Below, one piece after another: positions 34,063-55,600 of a stretch of DNA of 64,000 nt (the first letter of the stretch is position 1; each line of letters begins with the position of its first letter). Under the pieces are notes generated by a model. That model had not been told where the DNA came from and ran no database searches. It worked only from the letters and a program-made list of their open reading frames with translations. The translations under genes and the position numbers were made by a program. The stretch comes from Crambe crambe (lineage: Eukaryota > Porifera > Demospongiae > Poecilosclerida > Crambeidae): NCBI GenBank assembly GCA_963924555.1, contig OZ004594.1, positions 2,883,563 through 2,947,562 on the forward strand. The letters run 5' to 3'.

Positions 34063-36374
34063 TTAAAGCAGTGCTTGTGCTTCTCGCTCTTTCCAGTATT
34101 CCTCTGAGAGACCCTGCAGGGCGGCTTGCTTTATCAGCCTGTCGTCACACATTTGCTTCATCTGCTTCATAAAGTCCTCCAGGGAAGATGGGAGCTCGAA
34201 ACTTGGTAGCATTGTGTCGAAGGTTGCAGGTCCCATCATCTGACGGACTGTCACTCGGCACAGACGAAGGAGTGATAGAGGAGAGTCTATAATCAACACA
34301 AAATGTTCTTTAATATCGTACAATACTTGTGGGAGGGGGGTGCAAACAATGAGGGGGGCCATCGAGTTTACCCAACGGTCATCATGAAAAGAAATACCAA
34401 TACCATCCTTTACCCAAACTGTAACAAGGGTAGGAAATTGAGCATTCCTTAATCAAATTTCAAATTTCAAGAACTGAAGTTTGGTCAAATTATTGAGTAA
34501 AAGAGCCGAATGAAAACTGCAATAAGCTGCTCTGCTTCAAGTATGATGATGTCTTCAAGTTTGAAATGACTAATGAGTGACCAGTACTGTGGAACTTCCA
34601 ATAAAGGACACTCTTGAAAGAGGACAAATCTCTCAACAAAGGGCAATCTAAAACCACCTTTGCAGTGGAAAAAAGCGGGCCTGGGTACAAGGCTAGCACA
34701 ATCTATACAATATAATATTACTTAACCTCCAAAAGGACTAAAGGCTAGGTCATAAGTGTGTCCATTAGAGTGGAACCCCTGAAGAAGAAAAAAAAGACAC
34801 TCCGAAAGAGAATCTAAAACTGAGGACAACCTGAGGATGGGTGTTCATTGTTCAACTCTGATGCTATTTACCTGTAAGTCTGTCAATGAAACTCTGCAGC
34901 TTCATGGGAAGATGTTCCCGATCTACTTTGTTCAGTCGAGCTCCGTATTCCACCAGTAACGGGATCACGCTGTAAAACTTATTCACCAAAGCCACACCTA
35001 TTGCACTCTGACCCAGCCCATTCTCCACTGTTACGTCTGCACCAGCATCAAGCAAAATGAGTACGCTCTCCTCATCTCTGGAAGCACAGGCAATGTGCAG
35101 TGCTGTGTCGTTGTGGTGGTAGTCTCTGATCTCGGTGTCTGCTCCCATGTGAACCAAGGCCTTCATGCACTCGACACGGTTCTTCAAAGTGGCAATAATT
35201 AAAGGGGTTTGCCCCCATGATTCCTGAGCGTTGATATTAGCTCCCCAGCGCACCAGTTCATCTATGCAGTAGGTGTGGCCGATGGAAGCAGCTATGTGAA
35301 GAGGTGTGATGCCAAACCTGCATTAGTCAATAAAGAATGACACTTTTGCATAATCATTGGTAAATGATAGAATGTGAACCAGAATTCCTATGTGAACCCC
35401 AGAACCCCAGTTACTGAGCCAGAAAGTGGGTGTGGTTACTCAAAGTATGCGTAAAGATGATGTCAGTAGAGGAATTTTTTCAGTGGTTCTGGCCAACACA
35501 TTAAGGAGTCCTGGTTCACATTGGAGGCAGTTAAACATGTTGCATAGTGGGTCTCATTCACACAGCAAATGTTATCCATCTATGACCACCTGCAAACATC
35601 TTTCAACAATGTGTTGAGCCACAGAACAGTTATGTAGGCTTTGCACAAAGTTATTCACTCCAATGGAAAGAGAGGAGTGAGTATTCACGTTGCTGCTGTA
35701 GTCTCTGATAAAGACGAGAAAGCTTTTTATCAGCCAGAGTTGGTGCTCTGTTTACTATGTAATCCCCACACCTGATCACACCCACTTGCTGTTAACTCTA
35801 CCTACCTGTTCTTGATGTTAACTTTCGCTCCAAGTTGCAACAGCATCTTCACACACCCATACTGACCATGGGCCACCGTCAGGTGGAGAGGAGAGTAGCC
35901 ATCTTCATCCAGCTCATTCAGTTTGGAACCTGTACAAGAAAGACCATTACGTTCTGTGCATGCAATACTCATGCAGACAAGCTATCCCTTTACCCGATGT
36001 ATGCATATGCCACTATCAAAACAAAAACAAAAACAGAAACAAAAGGCTAGCAGACTCCAGGCTCTAATTAGCTCTAATTAGCTCCAGGCTCTCATTTAGC
36101 TCCAGGCTCTCATTTAGCTCCAGGCTCTAATCAGCTGTAGGGGGCCATAGCTAAAGGGCATAAGCTTACCAGCTTCTCGAAGGGCTTGTATGCACCTGGG
36201 GTGACCTCTGATGGCTGCTACGTGGATGGGCGCCTGCCTCTTGGGAGTCATACATCTGCTGGAGTCCAAGTCTTCGGGCTGGGCAGCTCTCAGGTGGTAG
36301 AGCAGGTCCTGTAACCTCCCAGTTTGAGCAGCCCACATAATATTGCTCCGATGTCCCGACTGAGTGATACCCAT
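34063..36374 (-). CDS. Ankyrin-repeat and SOCS-box protein (ASB family), 4 exons
   Basis: Probable substrate receptor of a Cullin-5/Elongin BC ubiquitin ligase. Exons (minus): 36374-36170, 35929-35806, 35317-34872, 34286-34063; total 999 nt = 332 aa, all in phase. About six ankyrin repeats between residues 45 and 245, for example DGYSPLHLTVAHGQYGCVKM, FGITPLHIAASIGHTYCIDE, WGQTPLIIATLKNRVECM and NDTALHIACASRDEESV. SOCS box about 259-298: SPLSLLRLCRVTVRQMMG (BC-box-like, LCR) followed by LPSFELPSSLEDFM. A charged 35-residue tail (KQMKQMCDDRLIKQ...EYWKEREAQALL) follows, not typical of short ASBs. Which of the many ASB paralogues it matches cannot be decided. It lies 486 bp downstream of, and on the same strand as, the KDEL receptor. 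Confidence 0.88.
34590..34810. repeat. Decayed fold-back repeats in ASB intron 3
   Basis: TGTGGAACTTCCAATAAAGG, AGAGGACAAATCTCTCAAC and, near 34768, AGTGGAACCCCTGAAG. These are fragments of the TACAGTGGAACCTCT family seen at 16000, 44561 and 63020. Confidence 0.55.
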
Positions 36375-41958: not shown

Positions 41959-52114
<10,156 letters not shown>

Positions 52115-52615: not shown

Positions 52616-55600
52616 TCACAGAGAAACCCCTGAAGTGGTGATGAGGTCTGAGTTATGTTGCTGTTCGCTGATGCTGGTTCTGATGTTTAACAGTCGCTCC
52701 TCTAGGGTCTTGTGAGCAGCATCGGTCATGTCTTTGGGTCCTGAGGCCCGCTGTTCAGCTAGCCTGCGCAGTACACCATCCAATTTCCCAACAATGTGTG
52801 TGACATTTGCTCCCTCCTGTTATGTGTGTGTGCGTGTGTATATGTGGGTTGATAGTGGGCATTGTGAAATAATGTGTATGGCTTCAAGGGAATTTCATGG
52901 TTTGCACTTGAAAGTGCCGCCAACATATTTTTTGATAAGAAATTCTGAATAAAATCCTGGCAAATATATAATTACCATAAGTATGGGAATCTTATTATAC
53001 TACATTGCATATTTGGCTCAAGATCCAAGACTTTGGCAGTACTAGAGCCAATACATTTAGCTATAATAAGGTATGCATCATTGCATGTTGCTCTTTCGCA
53101 TGCTTTCAGATTGCTCTGCTAGTTGTTCTTATGTCATGACTCACCAGTACAAGCTGCTTCTTGATCAACCTGAAACGCTCTTTCCTTGCCCTGAGAACCA
53201 CGTACTGAGCAAAGATGAGCAATCTGTGAAACGAGCAAAACATCCAAAGTTGGTAAAGAGTCATCGCATAGATAAAACTGCCTTACAGGAGCAGCACTAT
53301 GACTGGAATGATGAACCCAACGGAGCCAATGAAGTCAAAGAACTGCTGGGCACTACACGAGAAGTTGTTAATGACTTCTACAATAACAGTGAAGACTCCC
53401 TGCTTCCCCCTGAAAGGACCGCATGTGGCACTGGGAACAAAACTGCACAATTAATGAGAAGATTAACAATGACACTCAAGACTGTCAAAAGGTTACACCC
53501 CAGGGGATCCAAATTCGATTTCATCTAAGGTACAAAACCTCTCAACAATCATAGATTCCCAAGAACCCTCTCTAATTAGGATACCTCTCTAATCAGGACG
53601 CCTCTCTAATCAGGACACCTCTCTTATCAGGACGCCTCTCTACTCAGGACGCCTCTCTAAAATCAGGATGCCTCTCTAATCAGGACACCTCTCTAATCAG
53701 GACGTCTCTCTAATCAGGACACTTTTGTGTCTAATAGAATTCTCACCCCTCTAATCAGGATACCTCTCTTTTTGGGACACTTACTTGGCGACCAGGTAGC
53801 CTATTGGGACAAGGATTAGGAAGAGGCATAGGAGCATGAGGAGGATGAAGAGGAAGTTGGTACGGGCAGCTCTGAAGGCTCCTCTCTTATCCGGAGCAAG
53901 GTTGTAAATCAGGCTGTACTGTAGATGGAAAATATTCGTGACAGTCTAGCCCTAGCCCTGGCTTTAGCCCTAGCCCTGGCCTTGGCCCTAGCCCTAGCCT
54001 TAGCCCATTCACTTTTCTCCCGCTCTGTGAAAGTGGGTGCCATGTGTCATATATGCATGTGTTTTGTATTAATGGTCTACACCAAATTCAGCCACAAGGC
54101 TATATATTTGCATTCACCCTATAACTGCTATAACTTTCTCCATTCTTCAAATTTCAAACACCAGCAGAGAGAGTGGATAATCAGCTCTCTGTTGATGCAT
54201 TAAATTTGGTTAAGAATTGAGTAAGTTATAGTGAATGATCAAGGGGCGAGGTGAATGCAAATAGACTATAGTAACCATGAATATAGGAGAGCTAGTTATG
54301 GAGAAGTGGAAATTCCTAAGACCATCACATAATATCGACATGACCACTCCTAAAGACTCTCCTGTTCTGATGCACATACACACGTACTTACTTAAGGTAA
54401 AGCGGGGCTATTTCGAACTGCGGGTAATTCCGTATTTTTCAAATATTTCTGAAACTACTGAAGCTTTTGAGCTCAATGTTGGAGGATATAATCTACTATA
54501 ATAGTAGAATATACCTTTCAAAATAGAGCTCATAAGGTCGAGGAGTTTTGAAAATATTTGACCCTACGGAATAGCCCCACCGTTCGAAATAGCCCCACTT
54601 TGCCTTACCTTCTTGACATAGAATAGAACGAAGGATGTTAGCATGATGACAGCAGGAAGCATTGGACTGAAGAAGAAACCAAGCCTGCAGGAAACATCAG
54701 GTCAGCATTAATGCATCAACCATGTAACAATCTCTCATGAAAAATAGAGCAAGGTTTTCAGGACTGCATAGCTAGCTATATACTGTCTCAAATTTCAATG
54801 CCACACTTACCACAGAAGAGCTTGAGTATAGATCAAGTCCAGAATGCTCTTAGGGATGTTAAAGTTCCCTTTGCCTATCTTCTCACCGAGTCCTTTGTAT
54901 TTGATACGAGAAACAATACTACATCAAAATAAATGAACAAAAAATGATGATAATAATGTTAGCTATAGTTTTTCCCTTTTATGTGTTCTTCCCTTCCCCT
55001 TCCCCTTCCCTCCCCTTCCCTCCCCTCCCCTTCCCCTCCCCTCCCCTTCCCCTCCCCTCCCCTCATACTCACTTTCTGAGAGTTTCCACGGCAATGGTGC
55101 TGATGGCAGATACCACGAAATTCGTGAGACCGAGTTTGTATAATTCTTGACCCACAAAAGTCTCCCAGCACTGCAATGAAGATCAAAGGTCAATTATGAA
55201 AAGGAAGTCCAGGCTGGAGACCATAACAGGTACACTTTTTCCCTTTTACCCCTTTAATTAAGCAGCTTTCACTCACAATATTGCTTCAAATATGCAGGTG
55301 TCAACCCTTGCTAACTGGTATGAGCTTTACCCCTTAATAAAAGCAGCTTCTATCATATACGTAGCTGCCACGTTCCTAACTGATACAAGCTTTAAACTTA
55401 AGTCATTAGCCTGATTGGTGCCAGCCCCCTAGCTATAGCTGGTACGAGCTGACTCCACTGCTTACCACAGGGCAGTCTGCAACAATCTCTCTGGTAGCGT
55501 TGGCAATCACCCCAGTCAGGGAGGCAGTGGTGGAGATGAAAGTGCATGCACCACTTTGCGTGTTGTTGACCATTTCTTGAGTGCAGGAGATGAGGATGAA

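Follow-up and report, generated by a model that had tools for sequence, protein, structure and literature searches.

The TMC-B gene of the sponge Crambe crambe raises the question of how a transposable element can come to lie within a 5′ splice site that still reads as one. The gene is located in the window analysed here, by which we mean the whole 64,000-nucleotide stretch of contig OZ004594.1 (positions 2,883,563 to 2,947,562, forward strand) in which the element was found.

An element within the TMC-B donor

The TMC-B exon, which on the minus strand ends in AAGAAG at 54609, is followed by an intron start that reads GTAAGG (54608-54603). The layout and coordinates given in the first-pass annotation were right, the order along this strand being exon end (54609), G (54608), TA (54606-54607), a 211-bp element and a second TA (54393-54394) [Table 1]. 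The arms of the element (54393-54424 and 54576-54607) are 88% complementary. Positions +1 to +3 of the hybrid donor (GTA) are host bases and positions +4 to +6 (AGG) are element bases; as had been proposed, the donor's own TA is the target, and the TAAGG terminus converts a GTA target into GTAAGG. At the matching site, the tandem paralogue TMC-A reads AAAAAG/GTAAGTATGTATGTG (slash, exon end), with a GTAAGT donor and without the element, the two genes being identical at 111 of 113 bases across the exon and part of the preceding intron. Joining the TMC-B flanks through a single TA, with the element and the other TA removed, yields AAGAAG/GTAAGTAAGTACGTG. The GTAAGT of TMC-A that had been set opposite the GTAAGG of TMC-B thus agrees with both the paralogue sequence and the reconstructed empty site.

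When the TMC-B exons were spliced in silico over the insertion, the product matched the Pfam TMC family (PF07810, E 6.8e-33) over profile positions 1-111 of 111, with a phase 0 junction (KK/YSLI). Translation running on into the element would reach a stop immediately in phase 2, after 14 codons in phase 0 and after 36 in phase 1. Use of the distal GTAAGT in TMC-B would therefore carry element sequence, with a stop 14 codons in, into the mRNA.

Table 1. Features of the TMC-B insertion and of its TMC-A reference (positions in the window)
Feature	Position	Strand	Remarks
MITE	54395..54605	-	211 bp; terminal inverted repeats AGGYAAAGYGGGGCTATTTCGAAC
Target-site copy TA, exon-proximal	54606..54607	.	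donor +2/+3
Target-site copy TA, distal	54393..54394	.	
Hybrid 5′ splice site GTAAGG	54603..54608	-	GTA from host, AGG from element
TMC-B exon upstream of hybrid donor	54609..54684	-	phase 0; ends LGFFFSPMLPAVIMLTSFVLFYVKK/
Next TMC-B exon	53785..53918	-	begins YSLIYNLAPDKRGAF...; in frame with 54609..54684; 3′ border set by eye
GTAAGT remaining beyond the TMC-B element	54386..54391	-	possible alternative donor
TMC-A paralogue donor GTAAGT	43636..43641	-	uninterrupted; empty-site reference

The MITE family and its target sites

The element has the characters of a MITE: it is short, ends in terminal inverted repeats, exists in many near-identical copies and is flanked by a fixed TA target-site duplication, a Tc1/mariner-like feature present in the family. 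Beyond the window copy, 39 other genomic places carry it at 94-98% identity, the scoring having covered these 40 places out of 410 candidates. Across the genome searched (143.1 Mb, 119 contigs), the exact 20-base terminal pattern was found at 294 ends (none for the reversed-pattern control) and the exact 16-base pattern at 329 (one for the reversed control). The first 100 listed ends gave 73 rows, of which 67 were kept after four with repeated flanks and two from the kinase locus described below were dropped; because at least one more pair (L064, L117) shares similar flanks, 67 independent insertions is a maximum, and so is the estimate of ~220 that follows when this proportion of the first 100 ends is applied to all 329. 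TA flanks the left end of 28 of 29 other copies and the right end of all 29, and the bases beyond it vary. One copy appears to be nested, inserted at a TA within the terminal repeat of another (L031). On contig C11 (C11:1723380-3722281), eight ends have AGC before the TA in common, which suggests that these copies were carried along by a larger repeat. A separate inverted-repeat family with ends ACAAGTAAGGGAAAAA also bears a donor-like GTAAGG near its terminus (L029 366, L011 1753, L002 2974).

No transposase was found by Pfam scan in six of the ten frames listed for L061, a locus with an inward-facing pair of ends 3.4 kb apart; frames were also listed for four further end-rich loci (L062, L063, L065, L066), the scan comprising the six L061 frames. 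Outside this end pair, a frame at positions 4833-5201 of L061 matched phage integrase (tyrosine recombinase) below the cut-off (E 2.4e-4).

Among the 29 most similar copies, the base at -1 of the TA was G in 21 and the base at +1 was C in 23. A strict GTAC target, our first impression from these copies, proved weaker in a less selected sample; there, 57 of 107 ends had G outside the TA, a 2.7-fold enrichment relative to the TA sites of a 240-kb sample. The intrinsic target of the family is G-TA-C, not donors: under the family's flank preference typical donors score 0.76, below the average TA site, with assumed donor base frequencies. Any copy with G before its TA thus carries GTAAGG at that end, whether near a gene or not.

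Donor insertions in other genes and the expectation by chance

The sequence upstream of all 36 family ends in GG-TA context was read. Six of these ends are exact donors, each with an exon whose partner follows in frame. Four of the six show homology across the junction (TMC, SQOR-like, receptor tyrosine kinase and, weakly, FN3), and two (anoctamin-like and TTLL-like) were placed by frame, splice consensus and neighbouring exons. The joined SQOR-like exons (L033) align gap-free through the junction to sulfide:quinone oxidoreductase (PDB 6mp5, E 2.9e-32), and the kinase match (L070/L087, KTDV/WSFG; PF07714) rises from 48.5 bits for the first exon to 107.8 for the joined pair. The joined FN3 exons (L032) match PF00041 at E 0.0016 and 19.1 bits, below the curated 25, with a best PDB match at E 0.074 and no match for the first exon alone. 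At the anoctamin-like locus (L036), the downstream exon matches PF04547 (E 1.4e-15), while neither the donor exon alone nor the joined pair has a real Pfam match. The TTLL-like pair (L074/L088, DDW/DLLW) scores 19.9 bits against PF03133, for which the cut-off is 20.1, in a match that starts past the junction, and a PDB search gave no match. The junction is in phase 0 at all six donors (window 54609; L032, L033, L036, L070, L074). Read from the far TA, the earlier donors would have been GTAAGT, GTACAG, GTAGCT, GTAATA and GTATGT, so that the weak ones, GTACAG, GTAGCT and GTAATA, would have become GTAAGG upon insertion; the far end of the kinase copy was not recognisable.

Two other GG-TA ends lie ~35 bases into an intron rather than at its donor (L037, beside an FAD/NAD-oxidoreductase exon, and L017, beside an SRCR exon; borders by eye), and the remaining 28 of the 36 showed no convincing exon, several having open frames that are short and match no Pfam family. 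Weak donor candidates that matched no Pfam family with an E of 1 or less (L083, L079, L085, L068, L073, L080, L076/L077, L067 and L086, the last outside the 36 with a mismatched end) were left uncounted. A survey of non-G exon ends, covering 91 distinct G-TAAGG ends with the GG ones skipped, gave no convincing donor; all 16 of its frames of at least 44 open codons were scanned against Pfam. A sub-cut-off tetraspanin match at L007 was set aside, its exon ending, by eye, upstream of the element. A codon-usage score of exon-likeness upstream of GG-TA sites (2266 training codons) was dropped for poor separation and replaced by homology and reading frame (by eye, with Pfam and PDB searches); it was at or above zero at 5 of 37 element ends and at 16.5% of 1788 other GGTA sites, and the ends did not stand out. 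With 6 of 36 GG-TA ends in donors, a single lucky insertion does not fit, and the sequence at these loci makes donor insertion a recurrent event. Donors in genes that cannot be recognised would have been missed, so six is a minimum. The genome-wide search of terminal repeats, which the first-pass annotation had put forward as the way to recognise a general donor-mimicking element, thus bore out recurrence; it did not bear out a preference for donors, given the G-TA-C target and the 30 of 36 ends without a donor call.

The number expected by chance was modelled from 167,000 introns, assumed base frequencies of metazoan donors and the measured TA density. The intron number takes as proxy Amphimedon queenslandica, for which 166,862 introns are given and a table implies an assembly of ~145 Mb (PMC4432959). 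On these inputs, 1.5 donor insertions are expected under uniform TA choice and 1.2 under the measured flank preference, against six found (P 0.005 and 0.001, respectively) or five with the discovery case removed (P 0.020 and 0.007); with 250,000 introns, six give P 0.03 and 0.009. An estimated 8.6% of GG-TA sites, the far flank being ignored, are donors, and conditional on that context 6 of 36, 6 of 35 and 6 of 34 give P 0.085, 0.076 and 0.068, and 5 of 35 gives P 0.18. The excess over chance is thus about four- to five-fold in the unconditional test and does not reach significance in the conservative, conditional test. The donor preference entertained in the first-pass annotation accordingly finds no backing in the family's flank target, in the score of typical donors under it or in the conditional test.

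A second TA-inserting family served as control, an abundant group of tiny TA-flanked hairpins with ends GCCTCGTACCCAG that is seen in the window at 34681-34693 and in L020, L021, L029 and L061. It has 707 exact ends genome-wide, 17 of them in GG and three in AGG context; TA precedes 15 of 16 sampled matches, and its ends would yield GTAGCC in a donor. No convincing donor was seen by eye among the 17 GG ends, two (L150 and L157) being still possible; the reading covered the 300-450 upstream bases, a lesser scrutiny than the MITE received. Eight of nine control frames of at least 30 codons matched no Pfam family with an E of 1 or less; L150 gave a sub-cut-off THOC1 match (E 0.002), a 103-codon frame runs through to the element at L157, and L152, L154 and L157 have a donor-like site a short way upstream. 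At GG ends, 6 of 36 (MITE) versus 0 of 17 (control) gives a one-sided Fisher P of 0.085, or 0.125 without the discovery case, and 0.27 (6 of 36 versus 1 of 17) were one of the two possible control ends a donor. Over all ends, 6 of 329 versus 0 of 707 gives P 0.001, a comparison confounded by the different flank preferences of the two families. The control thus leans weakly the expected way and decides nothing; another candidate family had no GG ends and was of no use. That a TA-inserting element simply lands anywhere, at times in a donor, with its ends irrelevant, is accordingly an account to be taken seriously, if one to which we give somewhat less than even weight: the G-TA-C target, the GG-TA-conditional values and a control GG sample too small for a difference speak for it, and the unconditional expectation speaks against it.

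Proposed mechanism, competing accounts and known systems

We consider it likely that a non-autonomous TA-inserting MITE entered a pre-existing TMC-B donor at +2/+3 and that its AGG end keeps a U1-compatible GTAAGG, and that about five other genes were hit in the same way. Such a DNA transposon would jump into the TA at +2/+3 of a donor already present, and duplication of that TA would keep G-TA ahead of the element. The conserved first bases of the element, AGG, would then occupy +4 to +6, so that the intron would still start with a U1-compatible GTAAGG; U1 pairing, and with it the gene, would survive. At the sequence level, support comes from the target-site duplication, the paralogue's empty site, the in-frame exons on either side and recurrence. 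From these we infer that splicing uses GTAAGG as its donor and that splice tolerance is the reason such insertions persist. Counting against this account, the intact GTAAGT lies just past the TMC-B element, and the transcribed element is predicted to fold into a hairpin (-107.1 kcal/mol, z -12.0, none of 200 shuffles as low) that pairs the donor UAAGG with the far-end CCUUA and could hide the donor from U1. A stronger version, in which the termini evolved or were filtered to mimic a 5′ splice site, such that donor insertions would be neutral or improving, a niche closed to other TA-inserting elements would open and a measurable donor excess would result, strikes us as tentative and rather unlikely.

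The predicted pairing, the remaining GTAAGT and the existence of a paralogue of TMC-B would also suit an account in which the insertions disrupt splicing and are tolerated in redundant or dying genes, GTAAGG being incidental and another donor being used; we hold this improbable, since the insertions lie in different genes with open exons on either side and matching phases. Even less credible to us is that the element creates introns as an introner, with the donor from its left end and the acceptor TTACAG from its right. A good acceptor sequence, CTTTNCCTTACAG, stands at 21 ends; none of the 21 clearly abuts an exon (frames by eye), and at L044 the frame is open past the CAG. Each of the five other donor insertions has its acceptor outside the element, and TMC-A keeps this intron without carrying the element, whereas an introner's empty site would have no intron. 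In favour of intron creation, an open frame of 254 codons leads into the copy at C6:855393, and removal of the stretch GTAAGG...TTACAG would take out the element plus six host bases, in frame. At this locus (L011 1501-1715, C6:855393-855607; frame L046 739-1500), the copy's TAA is an in-frame stop and the frame has no Pfam match; the copy is possibly an intron in waiting.

The insertion of a MITE into an existing donor resembles several known systems in part. Rushforth and Anderson are said to have described in 1996 that Tc1 of C. elegans, itself TA-inserting, is neutralised within genes by splicing from the pre-mRNA, reportedly at sites at or near the ends of exon insertions; in that case Tc1 sits in an exon, whereas the MITE end rebuilds a native donor. 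In stwintrons of the [D1,2] type, the inserted unit likewise splits a 5′ donor; that unit is itself an intron, whereas the MITE is not bounded by GT...AG, the unit between the TA copies beginning with AGG and ending with CCT. Introners, like the MITE, are short and non-autonomous DNA elements, and bases of their ends and target duplications contribute to splice sites; across 175 genomes, 27,563 introns derive from introners, some of which carry a 5′ splice site and co-opt a 3′ one (PMC9860276). They create a new intron, whereas the MITE splits and replaces the donor of a pre-existing one; the words 'sponge' and 'Porifera' are absent from the main text of that paper. The Amoebophrya introner elements have inverted repeats and short direct repeats that overlap the exon-intron borders (PMC7789003), and are mostly non-canonical, whole-intron units, in contrast to the canonical GT donor and single border of the MITE. 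Among the titles and abstract openings listed in searches of open-licence papers, none described an existing donor being rebuilt by a DNA element. Donor rebuilding appears to be a different use of a known principle, that of DNA-transposon ends carrying splice signals.

If this account is true, a site vital to a gene could be hit by a transposon without the gene being broken. Confirmation would provide a natural series of donors rebuilt by a single element, and would place this case between ordinary MITEs and introners. How donor-like the ends of different TA-inserting families are could be set against how often each family occurs in donors. Should transcripts confirm it, a few terminal bases would decide where a transposon survives in an intron-dense genome.
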